Positions 10,177-35,812 of a stretch of DNA of 64,000 nt are shown piece after piece. The notes below the pieces were generated by a model, which saw only the letters and a list, made by a program, of their open reading frames with translations, made no database searches and was not told the DNA's origin. Numbering within the stretch: the stretch's first letter is position 1; every line of letters starts with the position of its first letter. A program made the translations under genes and the position numbers. The stretch is from Pseudoxanthomonas broegbernensis (GTDB lineage Bacteria > Pseudomonadota > Gammaproteobacteria > Xanthomonadales > Xanthomonadaceae), in assembly GCF_014202435.1 (NCBI RefSeq), contig NZ_JACHGU010000005.1:1-64000 (forward strand), read 5' to 3'.

Positions 10177-11477
10177 GCGCCGCGCGCGACCCCGGCCCAT
10201 CGCCGGGGCTGGTCCGCGCGGTCGGGCGCTGGCAGATCGTCGGCCTGTCCATCAACGACGTGGTCGGCAGCGGCATCTACCTGCTGCCGGCCGCCACCTT
10301 CGTGCTGCTTGGTCCGGCCAGCGTGTGGGCGGTGCTGCTGGCCGGGATGGTGGTGGCGCTGCTGGTGCTGTGCTACGCGCAGGCGGCCAGCTACTTCGAC
10401 CAGCCCGGCGGCAGCTACCTGTACGCGCGCGAGGCCTTCGGCCGGTTCGTGGGCTTCGAGATCGGCTGGATGATCTGGCTCACCCGCATCGCCTCGGCCG
10501 CCTCGCTGAGCAACGGCCTGGCCGATGCGACCAGCCGCTTCTGGCCGGCGGCCGCGGCCGGCGCGGGGCGCACCGGGGTGATCGCCGTCTCGCTGGCCTT
10601 GCTCACCGCGGTCAACGTGATCGGGGTGAAATCGGCGGCGCGCACCGGGGTGGCGCTGGTGATCGGCAAGCTGCTGCCGCTGCTGCTGTTCGTGGCCATC
10701 GGCCTGTTCTACGTGGACTGGTCGTGGGCGCTGGCCGGCGGGCCGCCGGCCGCCGCCGACCTGGGCCGGCTGGGCGAGGCGGCGTTGCTGTTGCTGTTCG
10801 CGTATGCCGGCTTCGAGAACATCCCCGCCGCCGCCGGCGAATACCGCAACCCGCGCCGCGACGTGCCGTTCGCGCTGCTGACCATGATCGCCACGGTGAC
10901 CCTGGTCTACGTGCTGGTGCAGCTCGTCGCCCAGGGCACCCTGCCCGGCCTGGCCGACTCGGCCACGCCGCTGGCCGACGCGGCGGCGCGCTTCGGCGGC
11001 GAAGGGCTGGCGCTGCTGCTGACGGTCGGCGCGACGGTCTCGATCCTGGGCACCAACAGCAACACCATGATGCTGGGGCCGCGCTTCCTGTACGCGCTGG
11101 CCGCCGACGGCTACGGGCCGCGCTTCCTGGCCGCGGTGCACCCGCGCTTCCGCACGCCTGCCGCGGCCATCCTCGTCCAGGGCGCGATCGCGCTGGCGCT
11201 GGCGCTGTGGGGCTCGTTCGTGGAACTGGCGCTGCTGTCGATGGTCACCCGGCTGCTGTCCTACATGGGCACGGCCGCGGCGGTACTGGTGCTGGCGCGC
11301 CGCTACCGCGACCGTCCCGATGCCCTGCGCCTGCCGGGCGGGCCGCTGGTTCCGGTGGCCGCGCTGCTGCTGTCGCTGGGGCTGCTGGCCAGCGCCAGCC
11401 CGGACAACCTGGCGGCGGTCGGCATCGCGCTGCTGGTGGGCGCAGCGATCTACCGGTTCCCGCGTCGCGATTCCTGA
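10173..11477 (+). CDS. APC-family amino-acid/peptide permease
   Basis: A 434-aa inner-membrane transporter with about 12 hydrophobic helices. The N-terminal IVGLSINDVVGSGIYLLPA matches the APC helix-1 unwound motif (GxGI). Further family signs are YAREAFGRFVGFEIGWM and FAYAGFENIPAAAGEYRNPRRDVP (helix 6 to loop). It is the fourth gene in the NlpC/P60-epimerase-YkuD operon and overlaps the preceding gene by 4 bp. It probably imports D-alanine, L-Ala, Glu or small murein products; the true substrate cannot be read from sequence. Convergent with the GH3 gene, with a REP hairpin between them. Confidence 0.88.
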   Translation: MSAARDPGPSPGLVRAVGRWQIVGLSINDVVGSGIYLLPAATFVLLGPASVWAVLLAGMVVALLVLCYAQAASYFDQPGGSYLYAREAFGRFVGFEIGWMIWLTRIASAASLSNGLADATSRFWPAAAAGAGRTGVIAVSLALLTAVNVIGVKSAARTGVALVIGKLLPLLLFVAIGLFYVDWSWALAGGPPAAADLGRLGEAALLLLFAYAGFENIPAAAGEYRNPRRDVPFALLTMIATVTLVYVLVQLVAQGTLPGLADSATPLADAAARFGGEGLALLLTVGATVSILGTNSNTMMLGPRFLYALAADGYGPRFLAAVHPRFRTPAAAILVQGAIALALALWGSFVELALLSMVTRLLSYMGTAAAVLVLARRYRDRPDALRLPGGPLVPVAALLLSLGLLASASPDNLAAVGIALLVGAAIYRFPRRDS

Positions 11478-11512
11478 GCGCCGGCCGCGCGTTCGAACGC
11501 AGCACTGCGCCT

Positions 11513-11537
11513 GTAGGCGCCGGGTACGGCCGGCGCC
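11513..11537 (+). repeat. GTAG-type REP palindrome between convergent genes
   Basis: GTAG head then GCGCCGGGTACGGCCGGCGC hairpin, between the stops of the permease and of the GH3 gene. It could act as a two-way terminator. Confidence 0.65.
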
Positions 11538-11541
11538 AGGG

Positions 11542-22260: not shown

Positions 22261-22529
22261 GGTTTCCCCGATTGCGGGCGCACCGGTACGGAGGCGCGCG
22301 GTCCGGCCGGGCGGCGCCCGACCGGGTTTCTATCGGCCCCGCCGCGGCACAAGTTGAGCGCGGCGTTCGGAGGGCGGCGTTGGCGGCCCGAAGGGCGGAC
22401 CGGCAGCGAGGGCCTTGGGATTCTCGATGCTAGCTAGAAGGATGCCCTGGGCAGGACCGTTGGGGATCGAACCCCCTGCGGGAATCTTCGCACCGCCGGC
22501 CGCTTGCACGCCGGGCCGGGGGAAGAGTG
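22261..22529. other. chromosomal gap before the island, no gene seen
   Basis: Contains the promoter region of the 108-aa gene and, at ~22455-22475 on the minus strand, a T-arm-like sequence (GGGGGTTCGATCCCC) that has no surrounding cloverleaf. Confidence 0.4.
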
Positions 22530-22550
22530 GAGCGGGTGATGGGAATCGAA
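22530..22550 (-). repeat. left attachment site (attL), holding the original tRNA 3' end
   Basis: 21 bases identical to 35741-35761. On the minus strand it reads through the T-loop and acceptor half of tRNA-Gly and continues CACCCGCTCCA, i.e. with an encoded CCA at 22528-22530. It is the displaced 3' end of the tRNA gene before integration. Confidence 0.85.
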
Positions 22551-22797
22551 TCTAACCCATAACCCGTTGAGTAATAACGATTTTCCTAGCCGTCCATTGC
22601 GAGTTGGACTGCTACTTGGACTTAGTCTAAACCACACGTCGAAAGCCCGGCAATGCACGCGTCCACCACGAACCAGCGACGGCTACCAACAGCCAACGAC
22701 ATAGTTCCGCCGACAGGCGCATCCCGCCCGTGGTCAGCGCGGCACGAGGTCGCACTACTCCAAGTGGCGTCCTTCCCCTCACCGAAGGGCGCGACGA
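22551..22797. other. left end of island, no gene seen
   Basis: About 250 bases between attL and the DUF2384-like remnant. No frame looks like protein. It may carry integrase arm sites for the left end. Confidence 0.4.
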
Positions 22798-22925
22798 TCA
22801 TCCAGCCGCACCGCCGGCGAGCGATTCCAAATAGGCGATGACCGCATCGACCCGGCCTTCCTGGATCAGGGCGTCGGCGGTCTTGTAGCCGAAGGCGCGC
22901 AGCGGCTTCTGAAGCCAACCAGCAC
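22798..22925 (-). pseudogene. remnant of an Xre/MbcA/ParS-type antitoxin (DUF2384)
   Basis: About 40 codons encode AGWLQKPLRAFGYKTADALI followed by an EGRVDAVIAYLESLAGG-type ending. This fits the C-terminal toxin-binding domain of RES-associated antitoxins (pattern WLxxP..a.G..p...L....  V...L). The frame continues upstream into the next gene in another frame, with no start or N-terminal domain of its own, so it looks like a leftover. No RES toxin is nearby. Based on motif reading only. Confidence 0.45.
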
Positions 22926-22930
22926 GCGCG

Positions 22931-23152
22931 TCATTGTTGATGTGCCCAATCGAGGGCCGCCTCCACATCCTGCTCGGTAATTCCCAGCCGCCGCAGCTTT
23001 TCGCGAACGGCATAAGCCTTCTGAGTTGGAACCGGGGTCAGGACGATACGATCACCTTCAATCGTGACCTCGAAGTACTCGGCCTCCCCAAGACTGGGCA
23101 CGACAGCCGTCGGCAAGGTGATCCGGCGCTTTGATGTGAGCTTGACGAGCAT
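22931..23152 (-). CDS. AbrB/MazE-like antitoxin
   Basis: A 73-aa protein with the swapped-hairpin AbrB motif at the N-terminus (LTSKRRITLPTAVVPSLGEAEYFEVTIEGDRIVLTPV). A helical tail follows (AVREKLRRLGITEQDVEAALDWAHQQ) of the kind that wraps a toxin. The start at 23152 has GGAG upstream. The expected toxin gene directly downstream is missing: only the DUF2384-like remnant lies there. It would bind DNA and self-repress if functional. Confidence 0.75.
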   Translation of the reverse strand: MLVKLTSKRRITLPTAVVPSLGEAEYFEVTIEGDRIVLTPVPTQKAYAVREKLRRLGITEQDVEAALDWAHQQ

Positions 23153-23260
23153 GTCCGGTCTCCGGGAGCAGTCGCAGGCATCCTGGCCCTATCTGTACTG
23201 CATCAAGTTGCCAGGCTAGGGCCGCCCGGCTAAGCAGCGCCAGCCTTAGCGAATTTAACT

Positions 23261-23298
23261 CTATTATAGACAATATAAAGTTTTTATGTCTAGAATAG
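23261..23298 (+). promoter_or_regulatory. probable HipB operator overlapping the hipB promoter and first ATG
   Basis: A 12-bp inverted repeat with one mismatch, CTATTATAGACA (23261-23272) and TGTCTAGAATAG (23287-23298), separated by 14 bases of AT-rich DNA containing TATAAAG. HipB-type proteins bind such palindromes over their own promoter. The ATG at 23286 lies inside the right arm, favouring translation from 23304. Confidence 0.6.
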
Positions 23299-23303
23299 AA
23301 AAC

Positions 23304-23666
23304 ATGCCCCGCAAACCACCCATCGTCTTCCCTCAAGAGCAACGCTTACTCTCCGAACTGGGAGAGCGGCTGCGCTTGGCCCGGCTGCGGCGCAAGCTGA
23401 GCAACGCCGTCGTGGCGCAGCGGGCGGGCATCTCGCGAACCACCTTGTATAAGGTGGAAGCCGGCGACCCGGGAGCCACACTGGGCTCCTACGTCCGGGT
23501 ACTGGCAGTGCTCGGCCTGGAGAACGATCTACAAGCGCTTGCCGCCGACGACAAAGTTGGACGGAAGCTCCAAGACTTGGCCCTGGCACCACCGGCGCGG
23601 CGGCCACGCGCCGCCGGCAAGCGCACCGATCCAGCCCCGCCGCCCGACACGAAGCCCTCGTCATGA
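23304..23666 (+). CDS. hipB: HipB-like Xre-family antitoxin
   Basis: A 120-aa DNA-binding antitoxin of the HipBA module. The Xre helix-turn-helix spans ~12-70 (GERLRLARLRRKLSNAVVAQ, then RAGISRTTLYKVEAGDPGATLGSYVRVLAVLGL). The tail is Pro/Ala/Arg-rich and disordered. The start at 23304 (MPRKPP) is preferred to 23286, which falls in the operator arm. It overlaps hipA by ATGA at 23663-23666, the usual coupling for these pairs. It should repress its own operon together with HipA. Confidence 0.87.
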   Translation: MPRKPPIVFPQEQRLLSELGERLRLARLRRKLSNAVVAQRAGISRTTLYKVEAGDPGATLGSYVRVLAVLGLENDLQALAADDKVGRKLQDLALAPPARRPRAAGKRTDPAPPPDTKPSS

Positions 23667-24931
23667 GCCCGCCGGACAACGTACTGGAAGTGTGGCTCGA
23701 CAGCGACCTCGGCCCAGCCTGCCAGGTCGGCACGCTGGCGCATGACCGCGGCCAGATCCGCTTCCACTACGACCGCGACTGGCTTAAAGACCCTCGGGCC
23801 TTCGCGCTCGATCCGGATCTGTCGCTCGACGAATCCCCCTTCTTCCCGAAACCAGAGCTCGGCAACTTCGGCATCTTCCTGGATTCCTCGCCCGATCGTT
23901 GGGGCCAGACCCTGATGAAGCGCCGCGAGGCGCTGCAGGCCAAGGACGAGAACCGGACGCCCCGCACCCTCTATGCCTGGGATTTCCTGATCGGCGTGCA
24001 GGACTTGACGCGCCAGGGGGCGCTGCGCTTTCGCCGGGCAGGTACCGACACCTTCCTTGGCAACGAGAAGATGGCGGCCCCGCCGGTGACCACCCTGCGC
24101 GAACTTGAGGCCGTTGCCTATCAGCTCAGCAGCCGCCGGATCGACGATCTCGACGCGTTGCGAAAATGGCTCGCCGTACTGGTGGCACCCGGCGCATCCC
24201 TCGGCGGCGCACGGCCGAAGGCCAACTTCACGGAAACCGACGGTTCCCTCTGGATCGGCAAGTTCCCTGCACGGGACGACGACAGGGACGTGGGGGCCTG
24301 GGAGTACGTGGCGCATACCCTGGCCCGGAAGGCCGGCGTGGATGTGCCGCCTGCCAAGCTGGTCCGGTTGAACAACGAATTCCACACCTTCTGCGTCCAA
24401 CGCTTCGACCGTGTGCAGGGCACGCGGCGCTTCTATGCCTCGGCCATGACCTTGCTTCGCAAGGAGCACAGCGAAGGCACCAGCTACCTCGAACTGGCGC
24501 AATTCCTGCGCGCCCAAGGCGACGCCGCGCATGCGGATGCCGACCTGGCGCAGTTGTTCCGGCGCATCGCTTTCAACGTGGCCGTCGGCAACCGGGACGA
24601 CCATCTGCGCAACCACGGGTTCGTGCTGGGCGAAACAGGGTGGCGACTGGCCCCCGCCTTCGACGTCAACCCGAACATCGACAAGGCCGAGCACGTCCTG
24701 AACCTTGATGATGCGGACAACCGGCCGAGCCTGGAGACGACTCTCAGCACGGCGGCGTTCTACGGGCTTGGCGACGACCAGGCCCAACAGGTCGTGAAAG
24801 AAGTCGTGGCAGCGGTCGATGGATGGCAAGACGCTGCGCGCAGGGCGGGTATCGCAGGCGCCGACATCAACCTGACGGCGGGAGCCTTCTCGGCCCATGC
24901 GGAGTTTCGTGCGGCTACAGACCACCCCTAA
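23663..24931 (+). CDS. hipA: HipA-family serine/threonine kinase toxin
   Basis: A 422-aa kinase-fold toxin; E. coli HipA phosphorylates glutamyl-tRNA synthetase and induces dormancy. An N-terminal subdomain (GTLAHDRGQIRFHYDRDWL...FGIFLDSSPDRWG) is followed by the Gly-rich loop GASLGGARPKANF (~180). The catalytic loop AVGNRDDHLRNHGFV (~310) and the metal-binding segment LAPAFDVNPN are also present. All expected motifs are present, so it is probably active. Co-translated with hipB. Convergent with the PrlF-like gene, stops 12 bp apart. Confidence 0.92.
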   Translation: MSPPDNVLEVWLDSDLGPACQVGTLAHDRGQIRFHYDRDWLKDPRAFALDPDLSLDESPFFPKPELGNFGIFLDSSPDRWGQTLMKRREALQAKDENRTPRTLYAWDFLIGVQDLTRQGALRFRRAGTDTFLGNEKMAAPPVTTLRELEAVAYQLSSRRIDDLDALRKWLAVLVAPGASLGGARPKANFTETDGSLWIGKFPARDDDRDVGAWEYVAHTLARKAGVDVPPAKLVRLNNEFHTFCVQRFDRVQGTRRFYASAMTLLRKEHSEGTSYLELAQFLRAQGDAAHADADLAQLFRRIAFNVAVGNRDDHLRNHGFVLGETGWRLAPAFDVNPNIDKAEHVLNLDDADNRPSLETTLSTAAFYGLGDDQAQQVVKEVVAAVDGWQDAARRAGIAGADINLTAGAFSAHAEFRAATDHP

Positions 24932-24942
24932 CCCTGCCCGCG

Positions 24943-25263
24943 TCAGAGCGCGACGTCGCCCTCGATCTCCTCGTCTGGATCCACGCCACTGCCGCCATGC
25001 GTCTGCATGGCTTGGATCAACGCTTTCGGAAGCTGCCGGACACGCTTGCCACGCCGGATATCCCGGGCCAGTACACCCAGGAAAGCCTGGATGGCCGGAT
25101 CTTCGTGTTCGCCGCTCACACGACTGATTACGACCCGGTCATCGTCGTGCACATCGAACGCCACGGCATCACCGATCCCCACTCCCAGCACTTGCCGGAC
25201 CGATCGTGGAAGGGTGAGTCGCCCCGTCGCCGTGACGGTGGCCTGTTCATGAATAGTCGGCAT
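24943..25263 (-). CDS. PrlF-like AbrB-fold antitoxin without a visible YhaV
   Basis: A 106-aa protein. The N-terminal AbrB-type hairpin reads QATVTATGRLTLPRSVRQVLGVGIGDAVAFDV, then EDPAIQAFLGVLARDI, and the acidic end contains DPDEEIEGD. The arrangement and the AFLxxLxxDI stretch match PrlF/SohA, antitoxin of the YhaV ribonuclease. YhaV normally follows directly, but here hipA ends 12 bp beyond on the other strand, so the antitoxin is alone. It could protect against a YhaV elsewhere or simply be a remnant. Confidence 0.78.
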   Translation of the reverse strand: MPTIHEQATVTATGRLTLPRSVRQVLGVGIGDAVAFDVHDDDRVVISRVSGEHEDPAIQAFLGVLARDIRRGKRVRQLPKALIQAMQTHGGSGVDPDEEIEGDVAL

Positions 25264-25450
25264 GGTCCGCTCCGCAACATCGTGCAGACCCACACTACAC
25301 CCCCTTGTGAAACCAATCGCCCCGGGGGTCGTGTGGACGACGAGGCATACCACCGGGACGACGAGGAGTTCTGGCGGCTGGCGACACCCCGGGCAGGAGT
25401 ATGTGTTAAAACCTCTGCACTTTTTCATTTTGGCCGAGGTTTCCTATCGC

Positions 25451-26071
25451 ATGTCCGCGTCCCGAGTCTCCCAGCGGGAACGGGTCCTCTCGCTGCTAGC
25501 AAGTCGCGGGATGATGCGTCTGCGCGAGTTCGGTGAGACCGGAATTACGGCCGCAACCGTCTCACGGCTGGAACGGGATGGCGCGATCACGCGGCTAGCC
25601 CGGGGACTGTACCGGCTCGCCGATGAGGAACTCGACCAGCAGTACTCGCTGGCGGAGGTGGCCAAGCTGATCCCGAAGGGTGTCATCTGCCTGACCTCGG
25701 CGCTGGCCTTCCACGGCCTGACTGATCAGCTCCCTGCCCACGTCTGGGTGGCGCTGAGCAAGCAGGACTGGCGCCCTCGTATCACCTACCCACCCGTGCG
25801 GATCGTCCGCTTCCCGCCCGAACTGCTGGCAACCAACGTCGAATATCACGTGATCGGGCAGACCCCTGTCCCAATCTATGGTGTCACCAAGACGATCGTC
25901 GACCTGTTTCGCTACCGTCGTATGCTCGGGACAGCAGTGGTCATCAAAGCGATGCGCGAAACGCTGCGCCAACGCAAGGCCACGCCTGCCGAGATCGCCC
26001 AACTCGCCGAGCAGGCAGGCGCATGGAAAGCCATGGCGCCCTACCTGACGATGTTGGCTTCATATGACTAG
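25451..26071 (+). CDS. AbiEi-family antitoxin without a visible AbiEii
   Basis: A 206-aa protein. The N-terminal winged helix (RERVLSLLASRGMMRLREFGE, then TAATVSRLERDGAITRLARGLYRL) and the C-terminal domain (ICLTSALAFHGLTDQLPAHVWVAL...VYGVTKTIVDLFRYRR-type segment) match AbiEi, the antitoxin and repressor of type IV systems. AbiEii, a nucleotidyltransferase toxin, normally overlaps its 3' end. Here only ~165 noncoding bases and then the convergent herA follow. ATG 25451 is chosen for its fit to the family N-terminus. Confidence 0.85.
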   Translation: MSASRVSQRERVLSLLASRGMMRLREFGETGITAATVSRLERDGAITRLARGLYRLADEELDQQYSLAEVAKLIPKGVICLTSALAFHGLTDQLPAHVWVALSKQDWRPRITYPPVRIVRFPPELLATNVEYHVIGQTPVPIYGVTKTIVDLFRYRRMLGTAVVIKAMRETLRQRKATPAEIAQLAEQAGAWKAMAPYLTMLASYD

Positions 26072-26235
26072 GTTCTGACCACAATCGGCCAGAAGCCGAC
26101 GTACAAAGTTCGCCCAGCCGACATCGGACCTGCCCAGACTGGTGTCAGGCACGTTCCAACACCACTGCCCAATTTGCAGATTAATGCTCACAATGGTCGA
26201 CAATAATTTTTCGGCTGCCGCCCCTTATCGCCTGA

Positions 26236-27903
26236 CTAGCGGCGCAACCACTCGTCGCGGATCTTGTCGATCGCAAGATCCTTCCACTGCTGCTGCCAGA
26301 GATCCCAGTAGGGAATATCAGTCGATGCTGGAGCCACCGTGCAGACCTCGATCTGGACTACAGACGGCAGGGCGATCGACTCTCCGACCAGCAGCGCCTC
26401 GCCCTGCTTGAAAGCCGGCATCTTGTCGATGAGCGTTCCCAGCGAGTCCGGCAGCAACTTGCGGACATAGCCTTGGTCGACCGGATTGGTCAGGCGCATG
26501 GCGATGAAATTATTGCACTGTGAAAAGATCGTCTCGGAGATCTCCGAGGGCCGCTGGCTCGCGAGGAGCAAGGTAATGCCATATTTGCGCCCCTCCTTGG
26601 CGATGCGCTCGATCGACATCTTCGACGCCCGGAACTTCGATAGTTCGCTGTTCGGCACATATTTGTGCGCCTCCTCGTAAACGAGAAGAATGGGTGCATC
26701 GTTGTTGATCTTTTCCTGCGGATCGGCGGCGCAGCGCAGGCGCTTGTAGAAGTAGCCATGCTCGAAGATCAGCCGCGAGATCAGCGAGACCGTGATGCTC
26801 AGAACCTCGAACGGCACGCCGCTGAGATCGATGACGGTGACGTTGTGCTGCTTGCCCGTACTGTAGCCGAGAATGGATCGGAGCGTTTCCTCGAAAGAGA
26901 TTGACTTGGATTTCTCGCCAAGGAAGAAGTCGAGGCGCCGGTCGTTGATCTTGCTCTCGAGACGATTCACAAAGTTGGTCAGCCGCCCATAGAGGCTGCC
27001 CTGCGTGAGCTTCGGCTGCCCGGCCTTCTCCTTGTTGCTCGCAGCATACACCTCGCCGCTGTCGACCATCTCTGTGTTGCGATAGTTGGCGTGGGCCAGA
27101 ACGTCGCGAATGTCGAACGGGAGCGGTGTGTCCAGATGGATTCGGTTCTTGTCGTCATCACTTCCCGTGAAGTGCGCCTTACGGCTCTGGATCACGGCAT
27201 CCTTAAACACGTTGCGCTGATTGTGATCGTTCGTCTCGGTGTCGAGGAAGAACTCCTCCAATTCCTCACCGCTCAGCATCCAGTACGGGAGAACTAGGCT
27301 GGCGCTGTCGATGAAATTCGCCTCCGGAAAGGCCGCACGATATTCTGAATGGATATCGAATATGATCACGTGAGAGTTGTTCAGAGTATAATCGCCCTTC
27401 GCCCCGACCGCCTTCTGAACGATCTTCGCGACGGTGTGCGACTTGCCGGAGCCCGTAGAACCGACCACCGCGATATGCTTGTTGAAGAATCTATTTCCGT
27501 CGACGGGAACCTCGACCTCCTTATTGGTCGCAAGCGTCGAAAAGCAGAAGCGGTCCTTCACGGGCAACGAGCTGCCATAGATTAAGCGGATATCGTCGAT
27601 CGTCGCCGGCTGGACGGTCTTTGGCGGGATCGCCAAGGCGTCGCCGCCGCGCTCAAACTTCTGATCGCGTAGAACGCCGAGCGGGAAAGCCTCGATCACA
27701 TAATCCTGGCTGCCGTCGTCGCGCGCCTGAATCTGGAAATTTTCAATGATGGCGACCAGTACCGCATTCTCATTGTCGGCGATCTTCAAATATGAGCCGA
27801 CACGGAGAGATTCCTCGGCGATCCTGAAATTCTCCAGGTCATCGACAACGATCTTGACCTTGTTAGGAAAGACAGCGACGACTTCGGCTTTTACATCACT
27901 CAT
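26236..27903 (-). CDS. herA: HerA-family DNA-translocating ATPase
   Basis: A 555-aa FtsK/HerA ATPase. A HAS-barrel occupies ~1-100. Walker A is GSTGSGKSHT (148-157), Walker B ILLVYEEAH (405-413), the arginine finger is in IERIAKEGRKYG (431-442), and a sensor-like motif ASQRP follows at ~448. Such proteins form hexamers that load and drive a partner nuclease. It starts 9 bp after the DUF4297-like gene and its ribosome site (AGGGGATAAGT) overlaps that gene's end, so the two are coupled. HerA plus DUF4297 is a reported antiphage pair. Base composition is visibly lower in GC than the island's SbcCD-like genes. Confidence 0.92.
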   Translation of the reverse strand: MSDVKAEVVAVFPNKVKIVVDDLENFRIAEESLRVGSYLKIADNENAVLVAIIENFQIQARDDGSQDYVIEAFPLGVLRDQKFERGGDALAIPPKTVQPATIDDIRLIYGSSLPVKDRFCFSTLATNKEVEVPVDGNRFFNKHIAVVGSTGSGKSHTVAKIVQKAVGAKGDYTLNNSHVIIFDIHSEYRAAFPEANFIDSASLVLPYWMLSGEELEEFFLDTETNDHNQRNVFKDAVIQSRKAHFTGSDDDKNRIHLDTPLPFDIRDVLAHANYRNTEMVDSGEVYAASNKEKAGQPKLTQGSLYGRLTNFVNRLESKINDRRLDFFLGEKSKSISFEETLRSILGYSTGKQHNVTVIDLSGVPFEVLSITVSLISRLIFEHGYFYKRLRCAADPQEKINNDAPILLVYEEAHKYVPNSELSKFRASKMSIERIAKEGRKYGITLLLASQRPSEISETIFSQCNNFIAMRLTNPVDQGYVRKLLPDSLGTLIDKMPAFKQGEALLVGESIALPSVVQIEVCTVAPASTDIPYWDLWQQQWKDLAIDKIRDEWLRR

Positions 27904-27912
27904 ACTTATCCC

Positions 27913-29130
27913 CTAAATGATCTTGTCGATATCTTCGTACTTGGGAATCTGAAATCGGGTATGGCTGATGGCGCCATCACCAAAGTCTTCAACCGGCTCA
28001 CTGCGATAGAATTCATAGATTTCGCGGGAGCGCTGGAACGACAGAAAGGTCTGCCGCGCCTCCGCCAGATCGCAGAATAGCCTCAGGGCCGGACCGGCAC
28101 TGGCGGAAGCCGGTCGGGAGATCGAACCGGCGTCGAACTGGGCACCCTTGAAGTCGTAGCCGTCGACGAAGCGAACGGCTTCGTTGTGCAGCTCCTGCTT
28201 GAGACCGGCAAGTTCGCTATCATCGATGCCGACGAGCAGAACATAGGGAGAGAAGGGCTTCGCATCCCGTTTGGACAGCTTGGAATACTTCCGGGAGATG
28301 GTCTTCAGAAGAGTTTTGACCGCGTTCCGATTGTAAGTGTCGCCAGCCGGATGGATGATGAAAAGCCGGTCTGCCGGAGAGACATTGACGCCTGCTGCGA
28401 AAAATTCGTTGCGTAGCCCGCGATAATATTTGGCCGCGCCGAGCTTAGTGATGAACCACTCATCGAAGAGATACGATGATGTATCTATTCGCTCTATGAA
28501 GGCCGCCTTCGTTGTGACGCGCAGAGCCTCGTCCGGTTCAATCGCCAGTTCTTTGATAACCCGCAGGGCGCTGTTATAGTAAAAATACTCGGCCGCGAAC
28601 GGTGAGCAGCTAAACTGTTTGACAAGTCTCTCTATGATCGCCTGAAACTGGTCCTCGAATTTCGCCGCATTCACGTCGATCGATAGGAGTTTCAAGAAGT
28701 CCTCGAGCTCCGCGTCACTGACTCCCAGCTCTTCATGTTTTTCGACCGTCTTCTCTTTTGATGCGGTGGTGAGAAAATTGGTCTTGAGGAAGCCAATATC
28801 GAACGGGAGCACCAACTTGTCTTGCCCGGACGCAAAATGGCCACTAAGTTGATACTGGATCGCTGGCCGGCCGGCCGTGAGGCCCGCTTTGAAATGCGCG
28901 AGCATGAACATGATGGCGGGCTTGATAACTGAATGATTATACTCGGATTTCTCGTAATACTTGCACTGGACGGCGGTCGTTTCCGTAGCCGTATGGACAT
29001 CGATATCCTCAATGCATTCGATCGCCACCGAGTCATTCGCACCCGTTAGACCCAGGATGCTAAGGATCGAGCGATCGAACTGATAGAAATAGCCAGCAAT
29101 CGTTGAAACTGCGCTCCGATCGGCCACCAT
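27913..29130 (-). CDS. DUF4297-like PD-(D/E)xK nuclease, partner of HerA
   Basis: A 405-aa protein. The N-terminus (STIAGYFYQFDRSILSILGL, acidic cluster E38/E41/D42/D44, then TTAVQCKYYEKSEYN with Q55-C-K57) fits the DUF4297/Cap4-type nuclease domain, whose active site is an acidic pair plus QxK. The rest (~120-405) is helical with no known motif and may contact HerA or sense phage. It sits just before herA and is translationally linked. The family call is by motif and neighbour; a profile search would settle it. The start has AGGGGGT just upstream. Confidence 0.75.
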   Translation of the reverse strand: MVADRSAVSTIAGYFYQFDRSILSILGLTGANDSVAIECIEDIDVHTATETTAVQCKYYEKSEYNHSVIKPAIMFMLAHFKAGLTAGRPAIQYQLSGHFASGQDKLVLPFDIGFLKTNFLTTASKEKTVEKHEELGVSDAELEDFLKLLSIDVNAAKFEDQFQAIIERLVKQFSCSPFAAEYFYYNSALRVIKELAIEPDEALRVTTKAAFIERIDTSSYLFDEWFITKLGAAKYYRGLRNEFFAAGVNVSPADRLFIIHPAGDTYNRNAVKTLLKTISRKYSKLSKRDAKPFSPYVLLVGIDDSELAGLKQELHNEAVRFVDGYDFKGAQFDAGSISRPASASAGPALRLFCDLAEARQTFLSFQRSREIYEFYRSEPVEDFGDGAISHTRFQIPKYEDIDKII

Positions 29131-29251
29131 TACCCCCTGCGGTGATCTGCCGCGCGGACGTCACGTTCGCATTCGTTCGTCATCGAAATCCCCATTTTTC
29201 GGTCGTTCCCGTTTCTCGATGATCGCATACCGGCGATTGATGACTTTATGG

Positions 29252-31873
29252 TCACAACGCGATCCGATTTCCAGCGACATGTCTGAATGCGCGATCGCGG
29301 CAGGTGAGAAGGACGACCTGCATGCGGGTCGCGGCCTCCGACAGAATCTCGATCATGGTGTCGAGACGGGCATCGTCGGAATAGACCAGCGGATCGTCGA
29401 GGATCAGCGACACGGGCTTCCCCTGCTCCAACAGCATATCGGCAAATGCAATCCGCGTTAGGACGGCAAGCTGCTCTTGCGTGCCGCGCGACAGGCTTGC
29501 GCAGCTTTCGTCCACGCCCCCACGGATTACGCTTTCGAGACCGAGATCCTCTGAAAAGGTGAGCTCGCATTGAGGCAGCAGGCGCTCGATATGACGCTTC
29601 GCCCGCGCCGCCACCGGACCGACAAATTTTGCCGACGTCTCGTTACGGGCGGCGTCGAGGGTGCTCCGTAACACCTTCAGCGTTTCCGCTTCATCGGTGA
29701 TGCGCTGAAGAGCAAGACGAGCCGCCTCGACTTCCTCGGAGGCCGCAGCTGTCCGATCGGCGAGGCCAAGCCCGCCCTCGCTCTCGATCGTCCCTTCAAG
29801 GCGCGCGATATCGGTCTCGAGGCGCGTGAGGGTCTCCCCAGCCGTGCGCACCCTCGCATCGATCAATTCTATCTTGCGCGTAATGGTCGCGACGTCGTGC
29901 GCAGAGGCATCGCGGAGTGCGTCTTCAACCTTGACCGAAGCCTCGGCGGCCTGCTCGCGCGCCTTGGCCAGATCTTGGGTGAGCGTCGCCCATTCAACTC
30001 GCCGCTCGATCGCCTCGAGCGCGCTGACGGCGTTGGCGACATCGCTCGCGGCCCTTGCTTCTGCCGTCGCAAGCGGTGCTTCCTCCTGCTCGGCGCGACG
30101 CAGGGCCTCGATGGCGCTGTCCTGGGCCCCTTCGGCGCGAGCTGCGGCGCTATCGGCCGTCTCCATCGCCTTCGTGAGCGCCGCGATATCGAGAAGCTCC
30201 TCCTCCCCTGCAGCCCGTTCCTCGCCGAGCTCGGCGACGAACAGCTTGAGCGCGGCGGATCCAGCGGCGAGCTGAAGGACATCGTCGGCGGGCGTCGCGG
30301 CTTCGATGCGCGCCTCCAAGGCTCGCAGGTCGGCTGCGGCATCCCTGGCGATCTCGTTGCGGGCTCTCGCGGCAGCAAGATCGACGACACCGAGATCGTC
30401 GAGTGCCGTTTTCCGCTTACGAAGCGCAGACGCCAAGACCTCTGCGGCGCTGGCGGCAGACGCCGGCGGCGTGATCTGAAGCTCGGCGGCGCCGAAGCGG
30501 ATTTGGACCTCGCGGTCGAGGGTGCGCGCACCGAGTACCATTGGCTCGCCATCGATCGTGATGCCGTCCGCTGAGCCGGACAACGCAATCCGGGTCGCGC
30601 CGGCGTTCACCACTGCCAGCGCTTCCGCAACGGCGCGGTCATGATCTTCAAGCGACGTCAGCACTTTCGGAGCGATCGCCATGTCGGAAAGCGCTTTCGC
30701 GGTGCTGTATTGTTCCTCGAGCTTCAGGAGGTCGGCATGCCGGCGGCGCGCGGCCTGGACCGCTACACCGCGACGGCTTTGTCGGATCCGCTCTTCGCCT
30801 TCTACCAGGGCCGTTCGCGCGGCCTGGCGGTCCGTGCGCGCGGCATCGAGCCCGGTGCGCGCATCCACCACCTTCTGCTTCGCGGCCGACAATGTGTCGG
30901 CGACCCCGAGACGCCGCTCGCTTGCCTGGGTCAGCGCGGCGTCCGCTTTCGTCCGAGCCTGCGTCGCATCGTCGTGGCGTTGCCGAAGGTCCGCGAGAGC
31001 CTTTACCTTGCCGTTGATCGCTTCCTGCTCGGCACGACGGGTGGTGAGGATCTGGGCCGCCGCTCGCGCGATATCGAGCGATGCAACCAGGTCGCTACGC
31101 GTCTGCGCGTCCGTGTTGTCCGCCATCTCGCGCTGGATAATCTTCAGGCGGGCACGAGCCGCCTCGACATCTGAGAAGCTGCGCTCCAGCGTGACCAATC
31201 GATCCGCGGCTTCGCGCGCCGTGGTCTCGGCGGCCTCGAGCCGCTCACGCGCGTCGGTTTGCCGGCCACGCTTCTGGCCCGTCGGTGTCCAGTAGAGCTC
31301 ATACTGGGCCTCGACGCGATCCCTGACGCGGCGATAGGCAGCGCCGCCCATGATCGACCCGACTTCCGCCTCGAGCGTAGAGGTGACGCTGTCGCGAACG
31401 ATCTGGCCGGGCGCGGTCACAGACAAGGCCTCGGTCTGGGCGACCCAGAGTAAACCGAGTGCGCCATAGGTCGCGACATCGCCGCCCCGGCTCGTGTCGC
31501 GGACCGAACCGAGCAGCGCATTCAAGCGCGCCTCGGCCTCCTCCCCTTGCGCACGGCCCTGAGGCCCCGAGACCTCGACCGATGCGCTGCGCAAGAAATG
31601 CTTGGTCACCGACCACGGCGCGCCATCGACCTCGAAAGCGACCTCGACCTCGGGACCGACCGCATCGCCATGCGGTGCGAAGGATTGGGCAAGCTGATTG
31701 CGCGTGTTGAAGCGGACGAAAAAGGCCGCGCGCAAGGCTTCGAGAAGCGTCGACTTGCCCGTCTCATTGGGCTCGATGACGACATTGAGGCCGTCGGTGA
31801 GACCCTCGATCATGACGGGCGCGCGGAATTTCCGGAAATTCTCCACCGCGATGCGACGAATGACGAGGCTCAT
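29252..31873 (-). CDS. YhaN/SbcC-like SMC-type ATPase
   Basis: An 873-aa protein with the SMC layout. The N-terminal lobe has Walker A EPNETGKSTLLEAL (~34-47). Long coiled coils with an Ala/Glu/Arg-rich pattern span ~190-690 and are interrupted near 430 by a hinge-like beta segment (GITIDGEPMVLGARTLDREVQIRFGAAELQI). The C-terminal lobe has signature SRGTQEQLAVLTR and Walker B SLILDDPLVYSDDARLD. YhaN proteins pair with YhaO/SbcD-like nucleases in DNA-end processing. It overlaps the nuclease gene by ATGA. The Walker B has Asp-Asp where SMC proteins carry Asp-Glu, usual for YhaN. GC is higher than in herA. Confidence 0.88.
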   Translation of the reverse strand: MSLVIRRIAVENFRKFRAPVMIEGLTDGLNVVIEPNETGKSTLLEALRAAFFVRFNTRNQLAQSFAPHGDAVGPEVEVAFEVDGAPWSVTKHFLRSASVEVSGPQGRAQGEEAEARLNALLGSVRDTSRGGDVATYGALGLLWVAQTEALSVTAPGQIVRDSVTSTLEAEVGSIMGGAAYRRVRDRVEAQYELYWTPTGQKRGRQTDARERLEAAETTAREAADRLVTLERSFSDVEAARARLKIIQREMADNTDAQTRSDLVASLDIARAAAQILTTRRAEQEAINGKVKALADLRQRHDDATQARTKADAALTQASERRLGVADTLSAAKQKVVDARTGLDAARTDRQAARTALVEGEERIRQSRRGVAVQAARRRHADLLKLEEQYSTAKALSDMAIAPKVLTSLEDHDRAVAEALAVVNAGATRIALSGSADGITIDGEPMVLGARTLDREVQIRFGAAELQITPPASAASAAEVLASALRKRKTALDDLGVVDLAAARARNEIARDAAADLRALEARIEAATPADDVLQLAAGSAALKLFVAELGEERAAGEEELLDIAALTKAMETADSAAARAEGAQDSAIEALRRAEQEEAPLATAEARAASDVANAVSALEAIERRVEWATLTQDLAKAREQAAEASVKVEDALRDASAHDVATITRKIELIDARVRTAGETLTRLETDIARLEGTIESEGGLGLADRTAAASEEVEAARLALQRITDEAETLKVLRSTLDAARNETSAKFVGPVAARAKRHIERLLPQCELTFSEDLGLESVIRGGVDESCASLSRGTQEQLAVLTRIAFADMLLEQGKPVSLILDDPLVYSDDARLDTMIEILSEAATRMQVVLLTCRDRAFRHVAGNRIAL

Positions 31874-32979
31874 GCCGGCTCCTCTCGGCTATATTCGACG
31901 AAGAGGCGTTCGAGGGCCCGCTTCGCGACCACCGCATCCTCGCCACCACCTTCGATCCTGGTATTGAGCATCGCCGCCGCCGCCCCGAGCATGCCCTCGA
32001 CGGCCAAGTTTGCAATGTCTTCCTCGCTCGGCCGACCCACCAGATCATCCGCGCGCACGTCGAGATAGCGCAGCTGATGCCCGATATCGTGTTCGAGCCG
32101 CGCTAGCATGCCAATCCGATCCCCGAGACTGGTGATACCAGCCAGCGTCAGGTGCAGGAGCGTTGTGGGCGCGTCGATCGCGCCGAGGAGCAATTCGCAC
32201 TCGGCATCGAACGCGGCCTGGTCGCCGACCATCCAATCCCGCAGAAGCCATTGGAATCGGCCCGTGCGGATCGGCGTGACGGACGGCTCCGCACCCGTCG
32301 AAAGCTCGACGACCAGGGCCTGCCCGGGATCATCCCGCTGGAAGCGGTCGACCTCGGGCGTGCCGGCATACCAAGTGCGACCATCGACGCGGAGTGCCCC
32401 ATGCCAGTCGCCGAGCGCCAGATAGTCGAGGTTCGATCGGCGTGCGCGATCTGGCGCGATCTGGTTCTTCGTTTCGCCTTGTGAGCCGAAGTTGCGGATC
32501 GAACCGTGCGCGAGGCCGATTCGCAGCATCGCGCCGGGCGTCTCCATGGCGTCGAAACGGGCGGTGGGATCTTCGAGATTGTGGCGATGCTCAAGCGGCG
32601 CCGGCAGCAGCCAGACGCCGGGGTTCATCTCGACCGGCTCGGGCGTCGACAAGATGACGATGTTATCGCTCGCCCGTTGACGGACGCGATCCCATAATCC
32701 GCCATTGCGCGCGAAATCATGGTTGCCGGGAAGCAGCCACCAGCGACAGCTATGACGGCTCATCCGGGATATAGCCTGCACGATCGTCCGGTCCTCGGGC
32801 CCTTCGGTGTCGAAGATGTCACCGGCAACGACGACGTGCTGTGCCCCATGTTCGGCCGCTGCGCGCCCAAGTGTGTCGATTGCCTCGAACCGCGCCTCGC
32901 TAAGGCCGGCCCGGACTTCGGGCTCGAAGCGCCCATACGGTTTGCCGAGTTGCCAGTCAGCAGAATGGATGAATTTCAA
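31870..32979 (-). CDS. SbcD/YhaO-like metallophosphoesterase nuclease
   Basis: A 369-aa calcineurin-fold phosphoesterase, predicted to be the DNA nuclease subunit for the YhaN-like ATPase. Motifs: HSADWQLGKP (D8, with Gln at 10 where Mre11/SbcD has His), GDIFD (D54), PGNHD (N86-H88), LAHGS (H158) and GDWHG (D191, H193). The C-terminal ~110 residues form a capping and ATPase-docking domain. It is translationally coupled to the ATPase gene downstream. The DWQ variant seems to be normal in one SbcD-like subgroup, but its effect on metal binding is unclear. Confidence 0.88.
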   Translation of the reverse strand: MKFIHSADWQLGKPYGRFEPEVRAGLSEARFEAIDTLGRAAAEHGAQHVVVAGDIFDTEGPEDRTIVQAISRMSRHSCRWWLLPGNHDFARNGGLWDRVRQRASDNIVILSTPEPVEMNPGVWLLPAPLEHRHNLEDPTARFDAMETPGAMLRIGLAHGSIRNFGSQGETKNQIAPDRARRSNLDYLALGDWHGALRVDGRTWYAGTPEVDRFQRDDPGQALVVELSTGAEPSVTPIRTGRFQWLLRDWMVGDQAAFDAECELLLGAIDAPTTLLHLTLAGITSLGDRIGMLARLEHDIGHQLRYLDVRADDLVGRPSEEDIANLAVEGMLGAAAAMLNTRIEGGGEDAVVAKRALERLFVEYSREEPA

Positions 32980-33139
32980 AATACCTCCCCCTGGTCAGGA
33001 ACTCCCGATCCTCGCTATGCGCTAGAAGTTCTCGGCCGCCGCCGGCTCAATCTTAACCGGCAGAACGATGTTCGGCACCCTCAAATATCCGGTCGCCCCT
33101 TCGCTGGTTTTCAACCCCGCTAGCATAGCGATTAACGCG

Positions 33140-33583
33140 TCAGGCGTTCGCGCGGCCCGACCAAGCAAGGGCCGCCTGCAGCACGACGTGGGCTTCCTTT
33201 ATGAGTGTCACGTCGCGCTCCCACTGGCCATCCGGCCCACCGCGGAATTTCTCGCCATGCAGGTAGCTATTTCGCACTCGGCAAACGCCTTGAATAATTA
33301 ACTCGTGCACGTTCATTAAGGGCACGGGTATTTCGGGTGCCCATACAAGGTCGTTCATCAGCCGACGCGGCGGCTCGCCGACCAGGGTCTTAGCGATGCC
33401 ATTGTCGACGACCGCGGCGAAGAATTCTGGCCCGAGATCACGGGCGAACGCATCCCAATCGGCTTCGGCAGTCTTCTTGTTTAGCCGAATCCGGCCGGAT
33501 CGCTTCAAAGCGTATTCGGCATCGCCGAACTGTCTCGCGAAGGCCCTGCGACGACGTAGGGATTGTCCAACGAAATCCTCCAA
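33140..33583 (-). CDS. HEPN-domain protein
   Basis: A 147-aa helical protein whose C-terminal third has IIQGVCRVRNSYLHGEKF. This is the Rx4H HEPN ribonuclease motif (R104, H109) in the VRNxxxHGxK form of Apea-type HEPN proteins. No ATG is available between the upstream stop and the first good codon, so a TTG start at 33583 is assumed. It is 160 bp upstream of the SbcD-like gene on the same strand and may be the first gene of the defence block. HEPN proteins are often RNase effectors in defence and toxin systems, but no partner (MNT or other) is next to it. Confidence 0.65.
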   Translation of the reverse strand: MEDFVGQSLRRRRAFARQFGDAEYALKRSGRIRLNKKTAEADWDAFARDLGPEFFAAVVDNGIAKTLVGEPPRRLMNDLVWAPEIPVPLMNVHELIIQGVCRVRNSYLHGEKFRGGPDGQWERDVTLIKEAHVVLQAALAWSGRANA

Positions 33584-33688
33584 GCCTGATCCGTCATCCG
33601 GCTAAACGTTGTGTGCCGGTATACACTGCAAACGACTTTCTGAATGACCGCCTTGGGTCGGAAGCAGACCACACTCACTATCCAAAGA

Positions 33689-35488
33689 CTAGGCATCTAA
33701 TCTTCGTTCACGAAGGCTAGCACACACGATCTCGCCAACTTCAAGGATTGTGCTCGATGTAACCATCTCTAAGGGCGCTCGTGATCCCAATCGCCCCATT
33801 GACCTGGAAAGCGCCCAATAGACATCCCAAGCATCAGCCTGATCCGCATGGGTCAACACGGTAAGGGTCAACAGATACTTGGTTGGATCTAACTGCCAAT
33901 CAGGAATCCGGCATCCCCGGTCATCCAGGGAAAGCGCAAGCAGTCGTCTGGCCTTGATATCCCCAATGATTTGTTCGCAAGACTTCCTTGCAAGCACGGC
34001 GTACGCCGACAGCGGAAGGTTGTGCGGTGCTTCGTAAGCCTCCAGCCTATCGCAGGCTGATGGCGGCAACCGTAATGCCGAAGAGTCCGAAACAGAAATG
34101 GCGGATCCCTTCACCAAATCTGGGGAACCAGGCGGAACTATGATAACCATCGTGCCGCCCTCCAAGTAAAGGACGCGGGCGACCTGCTCCTTTTCTGCAT
34201 CTCGCGAAGCAACCGCAGGTCCCATTGTCGACGCACTCGTCACAGCGACAGCGCCTTGCTCCATCTGATCCAAACGATCAGCCCAGTCCTGCATCATGCG
34301 CCGACGCTGCTCAATGTACTCGGCATGGTTGTAGGCTGTACCACCACCTTCAGCATCCGCATGCGACAGTTGGGCGTCTATCCAAGCCTTGGGGTAGCCG
34401 TATTCGTTCAACGCGGTGGCAATGGTGGCGCGGATGCCGTGACTAGTCAGACGCCCCTTGAACCCCAATGATTCGAGTGCCTGGTTCAGCGTGTTCTCGC
34501 TGATCGGCTTCTTTACATCGCCGCGTTGCGACAGAAGGTGGCGCTGACCTGGTCGTACGAAACCAAGCAACTGGCGTACAACTTCAAGAGCTTGATTCGA
34601 CAAGGGGACGACGTAGGGCGGCACGTCCTGCGACTGCTTGCCTTGCTTGCGTATCGTCAACTGCAGCTGTTTCACGAGTACCGCAGGAACAACCCAGAGC
34701 CCCCGCTCGAGATCGAACTGATCCGGCGTCGCGGACCGCAATTCGCCCGTGCGTACGCCTGTCAGCAACAGCAGGCGCAGGCCAAGTCGAATCTGCTGGT
34801 CGCCCCGATAGCCTGACAGACCCTGCAGAAGCAGCGGCAATTCCTCCACCCGCAGGAAGGGATTGTGGGCAACTGGCACCCTCGGCAGGGCAACGGCATC
34901 CAGATCCAGCGCGGGATTGCGCTCGAGTCCCGGGAACTTGACCATGGCGAACCGGAAGAGCTGCCGGAGCCAGAGCCGGCACTTCTGGGCAATGGTGAGT
35001 GCACCGCGCGCTTCAATTTTTGCCAGCACGGCGACCAGATCGCTTCGGCTGATGTCGTATATCGACCGCTTCCTGAGCGTTGGCGGGATGTCTTTCCGGA
35101 AGATCCGCTGGATCTGCAGCAAGCTGCCTTGGCGCTTGGGTTTCAGGCTGAGACGACGATGCTCGACCCAAGTGTCGAAGACTGTCTGGAAGACCTGTTC
35201 CTCCGCCATGTGTCGGACGAGTCGTTCGTGCTTACGATACTCCTGGAGATTCACCCCGCGGGCCACCAGAGCCCGAGCAGCCTCCCTACGGGTTCGCGCC
35301 TCCTTGAGGCTGACCTCCGGGTAGGTCCCCAAGGACATGCGCCGCTGCTTGCCCAGCCACCGGTAGCGGAAGTGCCAGTTCTTGCTGCCGTTGGCGGCCA
35401 CGTTGAGCGCCATTCCACGCCCATCCCCAAGGGTATAGGCCTTGCCGGTGGCGCGCGCTTGGCGGACGGCAATGTCCGTGAGCGGCAT
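33689..35488 (-). CDS. int: P4-type tyrosine integrase with a 200-residue C-terminal extension
   Basis: A 599-aa protein. The arm-binding DUF4102 domain (~1-90: LTDIAVRQARATGKAYTLGDG...RMSLGTYPEVSLKEAR) is followed by a core-binding domain (~100-190) and a catalytic domain. Catalytic residues are R246 (GVRTGELR), H350-R353 (SHGIR), H376 (QLSHAD) and nucleophile Y386 or Y391 (TAYNHAEY). P4 integrases end near residue 410; this one continues with a region whose last ~90 residues (RRLLALSLDDRGCRIPDWQL...ADAWDVYWALSR, then LGSRAPLEM) resemble Xre/MbcA/ParS antitoxin domains. It lies next to tRNA-Gly and should catalyse island integration and excision. Confidence 0.93.
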   Translation of the reverse strand: MPLTDIAVRQARATGKAYTLGDGRGMALNVAANGSKNWHFRYRWLGKQRRMSLGTYPEVSLKEARTRREAARALVARGVNLQEYRKHERLVRHMAEEQVFQTVFDTWVEHRRLSLKPKRQGSLLQIQRIFRKDIPPTLRKRSIYDISRSDLVAVLAKIEARGALTIAQKCRLWLRQLFRFAMVKFPGLERNPALDLDAVALPRVPVAHNPFLRVEELPLLLQGLSGYRGDQQIRLGLRLLLLTGVRTGELRSATPDQFDLERGLWVVPAVLVKQLQLTIRKQGKQSQDVPPYVVPLSNQALEVVRQLLGFVRPGQRHLLSQRGDVKKPISENTLNQALESLGFKGRLTSHGIRATIATALNEYGYPKAWIDAQLSHADAEGGGTAYNHAEYIEQRRRMMQDWADRLDQMEQGAVAVTSASTMGPAVASRDAEKEQVARVLYLEGGTMVIIVPPGSPDLVKGSAISVSDSSALRLPPSACDRLEAYEAPHNLPLSAYAVLARKSCEQIIGDIKARRLLALSLDDRGCRIPDWQLDPTKYLLTLTVLTHADQADAWDVYWALSRSMGRLGSRAPLEMVTSSTILEVGEIVCASLRERRLDA

Positions 35489-35655
35489 GACGCTCGCTCC
35501 TGACCCGAGTCGCAAACGAAGATCCTAGCGCTGCCGGCCAGCGACACCCAAGCGAGTCCATCGCTTACGGCCCTTGGAAAAAGGCCCCAAAAGTGGACTA
35601 AAAAGGACTGGCTGTAGGTGGAATTCGGTGGACGTCCCTGGAACGTCACAGCCAC

Positions 35656-35676
35656 GAAAAAGGGGCCTAAGCCCCT
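35656..35676 (-). terminator. intrinsic terminator 3' of tRNA-Gly
   Basis: Read on the minus strand: AGGGGC, loop TTAG, GCCCCT, then a T-run. It lies between the tRNA and the integrase gene, so it should stop tRNA read-through into int. Confidence 0.8.
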
Positions 35677-35695
35677 GATTGGCCAATGATTCGTA

Positions 35696-35735
35696 GCGCT
35701 CCATGGACGTCAGTGGCGCTCCATGGCCTTCAGTG
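35696..35735. repeat. two tandem 20-bp repeats beside attR
   Basis: 35696-35715 and 35716-35735 share GCGCTCCATGG and TCAGTG, differing at two or three positions, and sit directly next to the att core. Position and spacing suggest integrase arm-binding sites. Confidence 0.5.
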
Positions 35736-35740
35736 GATTT

Positions 35741-35761
35741 GAGCGGGTGATGGGAATCGAA
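35741..35761 (-). repeat. right attachment site (attR) within tRNA-Gly
   Basis: 21-bp copy identical to 22530-22550. It forms the 3' end of the present tRNA gene. Beyond the core the island sequence follows directly, so the CCA once encoded here is now at attL. Confidence 0.85.
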
Positions 35762-35812
35762 CCCACGTTAGCAGCTTGGGAAGCTGCAGTTCTACCATTG
35801 AACTACACCCGC
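35742..35812 (-). tRNA. tRNA-Gly(CCC), rebuilt at its 3' end by the island
   Basis: A full cloverleaf folds: acceptor GCGGGTG/CACCCGC, D-arm GTTC...GAAC, anticodon stem GCAGC/GCTGC around loop TTCCCAA (anticodon CCC), variable TAAC, T-arm with TTCGATT, discriminator T, 71 bases. After the discriminator the DNA reads CAA instead of CCA, so this copy must be trimmed and given CCA by tRNA nucleotidyltransferase. It is only 73 bp after the esterase stop; a TAGACT box at ~35823-35828 may be its -10. Confidence 0.93.

Follow-up and report, generated by a model that had tools for sequence, protein, structure and literature searches.

A cassette of two coupled gene pairs

The 64,000-nucleotide stretch analysed here (the window; positions 1-64,000 of contig NZ_JACHGU010000005.1, assembly GCF_014202435.1, from Pseudoxanthomonas broegbernensis) carries four adjacent minus-strand genes, which encode an SbcD/Mre11-like phosphoesterase, a Rad50/SbcC-like ATPase, a DUF4297 nuclease, and the ATPase/translocase HerA (Table 1). 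An initial annotation, made from the sequence, described them as two tightly coupled pairs, and this is borne out: the first two genes overlap by 4 bp, the last two are separated by 9 bp, and 121 bp lie between the pairs. The span it assigned, 26236-32979, gives the gene positions correctly, and the conserved unit is slightly bigger than that. We find that the cassette is real and mobile and consists of two separable modules; the HerA pair belongs to a known system, and the added phosphoesterase/ATPase pair makes this locus a variant of it.

Table 1. Features of the island and of the four-gene cassette, in window coordinates
Feature	Position	Strand	Basis or remark
Integrative island at tRNA-Gly, 13.2 kb	22525..35761		Direct repeats, integrase, tRNA, GC content
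Direct repeats, 26 nucleotides, 92% identical	22525-22550 / 35736-35761		Island ends
Conserved cassette	~26086..33107	-	Edges from L003, L004 and the HerA-less L176
HerA hexameric ATPase/translocase, 555 amino acids	26236..27903	-	NF042944, PADLOC, PDB 8xau_A
DUF4297 (Cap4-like PD-(D/E)XK) nuclease, 405 amino acids	27913..29130	-	NF042945, PADLOC PDLC02187, PDB 8xav_G
Intergenic stretch, 121 bp, 5' of DUF4297	29131..29251	-	Inside DNA homologous to relatives keeping only an ATPase 3'-end relic
Rad50/SbcC-like coiled-coil ABC ATPase (A-type), 873 amino acids	29252..31873	-	PF13476 AAA_23, PDB Rad50
SbcD/Mre11-like calcineurin-type phosphoesterase (A-type), 369 amino acids	31870..32979	-	PF00149, TIGR00619, PDB SbcD
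Tyrosine integrase	33689-35515	-	
tRNA-Gly(ccc)	35741-35812		Right direct repeat falls at the tRNA end

The nuclease and HerA are the reported antiphage pair that the annotation had recognised. DUF4297 scores 491.7 bits against the NCBIfam equivalog NF042945 (antiphage nuclease family; cut-off 300) and HerA 900.5 bits against NF042944 (antiphage-associated HerA; cut-off 850), and the best PADLOC matches have E-values of 5.6e-144 and 9.7e-272, respectively. Both proteins also match solved structures (8xav_G at 3.5e-79; 8xau_A at 1.7e-207). The nuclease gene precedes that of HerA on the same strand with the short gap noted above, which is the arrangement of the known pair. The window therefore shares with the DUF4297-HerA system both proteins, their order and spacing, the models they match and their solved homologues, and differs from it in having a phosphoesterase/Rad50-like pair upstream. 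Residues Q54 and K56 and an acidic cluster are conserved in DUF4297, and the Walker A and B motifs of HerA are kept in 30 sequences. This system was reportedly described as antiphage by Gao in 2020. Two relatives carry damaged HerA genes: in L008 the HerA frame is in two pieces (11224-12879), and in L066 (14216-18944) it is interrupted by an IS66 element; DUF4297 is open in both.

The two upstream proteins are more distant from their named relatives. The phosphoesterase matches PF00149 above the cut-off (1.5e-9) and resembles SbcD from the Protein Data Bank across residues 1-90 (3.4e-6), giving it an SbcD-like N-terminus; its score against TIGR00619 (sbcd), 42.8 bits (5e-11), lies under the subfamily cut-off of 77.65. 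The ATPase passes AAA_23 (PF13476; 36.8 bits, cut-off 27) and matches solved Rad50 at 3.6e-9. It had been labelled YhaN-like, a loose term, since the protein falls short of AAA_27 (PF13514; 18 bits, cut-off 22), and we reject its identification as YhaN. Hereafter, A-type denotes pairs like that of the window and B-type denotes YhaO/YhaN (AAA_27) pairs; the two types bear a distant sequence likeness. B-type pairs likewise combine a phosphoesterase with a large coiled-coil ATPase and occupy similar HerA neighbourhoods (L007, L012, L013, L088), but their ATPases are ~1140 amino acids long.

Canonical Mre11/SbcD proteins bear the metal motifs DxH and GHxH, as do seven B-type phosphoesterase sequences. 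Among 33 A-type sequences, including that of the window, motif I is DxQ in 28 (the window's among them) and DxH in five, and motif V is GDWH in every one. Walker A, the LSxG signature and Walker B (LDD in 33/33) are conserved in the A-type ATPases, and a zinc-hook CxxC occurs in the middle region of none of the 33. The claim that all catalytic motifs are intact holds for HerA and DUF4297. Judged from these sequences, DxQ/GDWH and the hookless ATPase are family traits, not decay. The pair thus resembles SbcCD and Mre11-Rad50 in the overlap of its genes and in its ABC ATPase motifs, and is unlike them in its subthreshold sbcd score, its DxQ and GDWH motifs and its hookless ATPase of 873 residues. 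Structure prediction of the SbcD-like protein from seven near-identical sequences gave a mean predicted local distance difference test score of 44, which is unusable.

Recurrence, loss and replacement of the upstream pair

A scan of genome contigs for DUF4297 yielded 17 loci, six with DUF4297 at ~90% identity or more. Five of the six (L002-L005, L009) have the four genes in the window's order within differing flanks, HerA reaching the contig edge in L002 and L005; in the sixth, L011, the contig ends inside DUF4297. Their hosts are an alphaproteobacterial metagenome-assembled genome, Erythrobacter, Gluconacetobacter, Komagataeibacter and Sphingobium. The homologous DNA is 87.5-92.0% identical; its limits in L003, L004 and L009 lie at about 26.1-26.2 kb and 33.0-33.1 kb, and L002 shares an extra 0.6 kb on the SbcD side. 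One contig from a metagenome (L176/L178) is 91.3% identical to window positions 33107-29248, a segment that stops where the ATPase gene does; after a few further bases it resumes with a 46-bp match to the opposite margin of the cassette (26131-26086, 87%). It is thus the cassette without DUF4297-HerA, with both edges kept and both pair genes open; this state may reflect either a loss or a stage before insertion, and the sequences fit both. Among 50,697 phage records, none matched the DUF4297 protein, and the cassette had no close match in phage DNA. DUF4297 was present in 1 of 385 sampled genomes and, in a second sample, in 3 of 369 (including the genome of the window itself and another whose match is weak and partial); because this sampling is thin, most loci come from contig, plasmid and viral scans.

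The initial annotation had proposed counting how often the two pairs are neighbours. Loci from those scans and from genome searches were clustered at 80% nuclease identity into 24 DUF4297-HerA clusters, leaving out rows with a truncated or split DUF4297 or HerA (L002, L011, L018, L066, L143), a weak partial match (L096) and duplicates (L001, L070-L072). An A- or B-type ATPase lies within 10.5 kb in 8 of the 24, on the same strand in seven of these eight. The corresponding figure was 0/31 for AbiEii loci (which lie in 19 of 115 alphaproteobacterial genomes; nine on stretches shorter than 15 kb) and 0/6 for Shango loci (three on contigs of 5-12.6 kb). By Fisher's test, the difference from AbiEii has p=0.0006, or 0.0028 against the 22 AbiEii loci on at least 15 kb; the p value is 0.0009 when L066 and L143 are added as pairless (8/26), 0.019 without the four clusters of the window's clade (4/20), and 0.010 after related clusters are collapsed by hand (4/16). 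Among plasmids, the pair was found in 7 of 18 DUF4297 records (four of them unopened and scored as pairless) and in 2 of 60 AbiEii records (p 0.0003), the latter figure using coordinates among the matches listed only (60/67, 60/116 and 60/202 records); both AbiEii positives are HerA loci too. Phosphoesterase/SMC-like pairs, of both types, are thus found with DUF4297-HerA more often than with the control loci, in a recurrent but facultative association. The supposition that the four genes travel together holds for the window's clade, where they move as one block, and gives way elsewhere to a recurrent, facultative pairing. An account of the B-type cases in which the pair accompanies Shango we reject as the sole reason, given the unpaired Shango loci and the fact that L088 is paired with no Shango match.

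Comparison of the genes points to repeated assembly. Between the window and L077, identities are 76% for SbcD and 68% for the ATPase and fall to 24% for the nuclease and 38% for HerA. The opposite imbalance is seen for L007, whose B-type ATPase is only 26% identical to that of L012 (nuclease 70%, HerA 85%) and 31% identical to that of L013 (nuclease 62%, HerA 86%). Within one joining, by comparison, the genes diverge together (93/93/92/92% for the window and L009, 76/68/69/87% for L077 and L080, and 77/76/92% for L012 and L064). The HerA tree requires at least four changes in pair presence, and six when pair type is considered (excluding rows at contig edges); the tree of A-type ATPases, a quick one with long branches, needs four. 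Six or seven separate joinings are likely on these comparisons: the window clade, the L077 clade, L068, the L007 clade, the L012 clade, L013 and L088. L068 could instead be an old shared arrangement, because the identities of its nuclease (35%) and HerA (57%) to those of the window do not depart clearly from what its ATPase (25%) would suggest. The A-type order of phosphoesterase, SMC-like gene, nuclease and HerA, with short gaps, is found in the window clade, L068, L077, L079 and L080.

Traces of the ATPase gene persist at some loci. In L006, L007, L008 and L010, DNA homologous to the window at 85% identity spans the stretch between the ATPase and nuclease genes and takes in the final 42-54 bp of the former. 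The 13 amino acids encoded by this relic align 123 bp from DUF4297, the distance at intact loci being 123-125 bp, with a score of 53 against shuffled maxima of 37-45 (closest in L006, at 45). L013 has a decayed ATPase relic of ~110 bp (blastn 4e-6; score 61 against 41 for shuffles). No excess over shuffles was found for an SMC-like relic in L012 (35 against 39) or its near-copy L063 (35 against 42), and these were not counted. Such relics upstream of DUF4297 suggest that the DUF4297-HerA genes of L006, L007, L008, L010 and L013 derive from an ancestral arrangement with an A-type ATPase gene directly upstream, and descent with later loss accounts for them most simply. Four of these loci (L007, L008, L010, L013) now hold a B-type pair, and L006 ends at a contig edge. 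Taken together, the alignments indicate that pairs have joined DUF4297-HerA repeatedly, have been lost and have been swapped.

A GACGTGACGTC-like motif in window 29131-29200, upstream of the DUF4297 start, recurs in L007 and L008 and is a possible operator. The Rhodobacterales loci L012, L063, L064 and L065 have a one-strand array that comprises Shango-type SngA, SngB and SngC, DUF4297-HerA and YhaO-YhaN; in L064 and L065 there is an overlap between the helicase and DUF4297 genes, and homologues in L007 match Shango models.

Partners of the pair and its possible role

Away from DUF4297-HerA, the pair holds together and keeps varied company. Fifteen genomic contexts of A-type ATPases were inspected, and an SbcD-like gene adjoins in 14; in four of these genomes a separate contig carries a HerA-like match. 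Among 72,556 plasmid records, the A-type query had 116 matches and the B-type query 202, of which 23 and 29, respectively, cover at least 80% of the query. Thirteen contexts were opened among the 116 A-type records; DUF4297-HerA lies directly downstream in three of them (L077, L079, L080), and in one, L078, a SIR2-HerA module is convergent to the pair. Of 115 alphaproteobacterial genomes, five have B-type ATPases, none of them with HerA nearby. A Paraburkholderia relative of the L088 pair (41%) stands beside a DUF3320 gene. Since its surroundings range from HerA, BREX and AbiE genes to none of these, the pair is a promiscuous neighbour of defence loci, with DUF4297-HerA a recurrent and not an exclusive partner.

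As side observations, AbiEi-AbiEii genes in L077 and L079 (4915-8004) precede the SbcD-like gene in the same orientation, with 22 bp between them, and a set of VWA, PP2C and zinc-finger genes comes after HerA in both. On a Variovorax plasmid (L069, 10856-14236), AbiE-type genes lie directly upstream of DUF4297-HerA with no phosphoesterase/SMC pair near; the sole trace of a pair there is a B-type ATPase fragment of 88 amino acids 9 kb away.

Our tentative interpretation, to which we assign a probability of roughly 45%, is that the locus is a mobile two-module cassette in which the pair may serve as an optional accessory aiding DUF4297-HerA. According to the available text of An et al. 2024 (PMC11291478), DUF4297-HerA forms a complex of ~1 MDa that cleaves double-stranded DNA without specificity or preference for phage DNA and works by abortive infection; the complex is toxic to cells, shows constitutive activity in vitro, and must be regulated. 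Its trigger is described there as unknown and, in the available part of PMC12198126, as unclear; the latter source also states that expression is induced upon infection. The available text of PMC11291478 has no occurrence of Rad50, SbcC or Mre11, and no account linking the pair to DUF4297-HerA was found in literature titles and abstract openings. Two precedents come from elsewhere: archaeal herA-nurA share an operon with mre11-rad50 (available text of PMC12977600), and in Lamassu a Rad50-like protein is coupled to effectors, Cap4-type nucleases among them, and is proposed to control them (available text of PMC10586767). Drawing on these published traits and precedents, we suggest that the phosphoesterase/SMC-like complex would bind or trim DNA ends in the manner of SbcCD and Mre11-Rad50, and that the processed or bound ends would give DUF4297-HerA a loading site, or a licence, on linear or broken phage DNA. 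The pair would act as an optional accessory and not as a required subunit, and the whole would work like the archaeal mre11-rad50-herA-nurA cluster, with another nuclease in place of NurA, and like Lamassu. Cooperation of the two modules through sensing or processing of DNA ends is plausible on this analogy, from which we infer contact between the modules, end-sensing and an effect on defence.

The analogies have limits. Like the archaeal cluster, the window brings together Mre11-like, Rad50-like and HerA proteins and a nuclease partner of HerA; here DUF4297 replaces NurA, the locus is bacterial, it sits on islands or plasmids, the association is facultative, and the likeness is one of gene content. 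NurA had no match among the DUF4297 profile hits, and the partner of HerA is DUF4297. With Lamassu the window shares a Cap4-type nuclease and a Rad50-like ATPase (DUF4297 to LmuA, 1.2e-13; ATPase to LmuB, 5e-7), but it adds HerA and a phosphoesterase. LmuA scores 50 bits against 478 for the DUF4297 model, and LmuB, at 27 bits, is not the top match of the ATPase, so that LmuA and LmuB are not the best models as Lamassu assignment requires; LmuC is absent from the matches listed for ten island proteins (the best 25 for two of them). A more ambitious proposal, which we regard as unlikely, is that bacteria assembled a defence counterpart of archaeal mre11-rad50-herA-nurA about seven times and from two pair types, the pair being an exchangeable end sensor that licenses DUF4297-HerA.

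Nearly as likely as the accessory role is that the modules are independent neighbours, the pair being a separate defence or DNA-maintenance module collected into the same cassettes as HerA-DUF4297. Several observations speak against an accessory role, and much of this evidence favours independent neighbours. There was no HerA or DUF4297 in any of the 15 genomic A-type contexts (up to ~8 kb on each side), and 9 of the 13 opened plasmid contexts have no match to DUF4297-HerA or SIR2-HerA. Elsewhere the pair is found beside restriction-modification, AbiE-type, SIR2-HerA or BREX genes: AbiE-type genes adjoin it in three of the 13 plasmid loci, and in two Methylomonas koyamae plasmids (L187, L188) relatives of the L088 B-type YhaO-YhaN pair, at 80%, directly follow BREX pglZ-brxL, with no HerA match within 7 kb of these two or of the Paraburkholderia pair (0/3). 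L176 does without the HerA module, 16 of the 24 DUF4297-HerA clusters are pairless in the stretch examined (flanks being short in L015 and L092), and a further 37 HerA loci taken from viral contigs, SIR2-HerA being frequent among them, all lack the pair. Within the window's cassette, the modules differ in GC content, at 0.534-0.564 for DUF4297/HerA and 0.645-0.661 for the pair. The counts themselves carry two biases, in that controls were drawn without species matching and loci were retrieved through similarity to the window, which over-represents its kin. Another point has to be read with the caveat that E. coli carries its own SbcCD. In the available text of PMC11291478, the DUF4297-HerA operon protects E. 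coli with no added partner.

Mere co-residence accounts less readily for enrichment above the AbiEii and Shango controls, for gene order and strand that are identical across separate A-type joinings and are accompanied by long co-divergence, and for the exchange, within a single HerA lineage, of one pair type for another, distinct type. A fixed membership of the pair in the DUF4297-HerA system is rejected, given the 15 genomic contexts, L176 and the pairless clusters. The composite defence system envisaged by the initial annotation therefore survives as a possible, recurrent accessory association, and the pairless clusters, together with the pairs that occur without HerA, leave a dedicated four-gene system unsupported.

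Improbable, in our estimate, is a guarding role, in which the pair would shield chromosomal ends or process breaks in uninfected cells and so restrain the toxic, non-specific DUF4297-HerA nuclease or repair its damage; loci with the pair would then tolerate the nuclease better. The published toxicity and in vitro activity of the complex (available text of PMC11291478) lead one to expect regulation, and the pair resembles break-processing proteins; yet the many pairless clusters argue that tolerance is independent of the pair, which is also present without HerA near. It is most improbable that the pair is a physical passenger, helping plasmid or island maintenance or transfer with no part in defence: the plasmid matches counted above, which include alphaproteobacterial plasmids, would suit such a role, but the pair also occurs in genomes sampled regardless of plasmids, and defence genes lie near it in several opened plasmid loci.

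With respect to the accessory reading, a linked and separable pair that resembles DNA-end-sensing proteins is a direct candidate for the missing trigger input of DUF4297-HerA. The relatives constitute matched natural variants, in which the pair is present, is lost with a relic left behind, or is of the other type, or in which the HerA module is absent. If the pair matters, defence systems may borrow end-sensing modules as accessories, as its BREX neighbours also suggest.

The integrative island and its other genes

The cassette lies in an integrative island (Table 1) with a GC content of 0.611, compared with 0.725-0.73 in the surrounding DNA. In five same-genus genomes, homology to the window ends at 35738-35741. 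An empty insertion site was sought in these five genomes, and the left flank is not adjacent to the right one there; the left island edge is therefore taken from the direct repeat alone.

Between the cassette and the integrase, an open reading frame for 147 amino acids (orf147; 33140-33583, minus strand) matches nothing in Pfam; of the 17 DUF4297 contig loci, L002 alone has a relative (92.5% identical), within the extra shared DNA. On the other side of the cassette, gene calls for a PrlF-type antitoxin (24943-25428, minus strand) and an AbiEi-type antitoxin (25262-26071, plus strand) overlap on opposite strands, and a scan of ten island open reading frames recognised neither an AbiEii nor a YhaV toxin. 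Near the left island edge (23286-24931, plus strand), a gene for a helix-turn-helix (HipB-like) protein and a HipA gene overlap by 4 bp.

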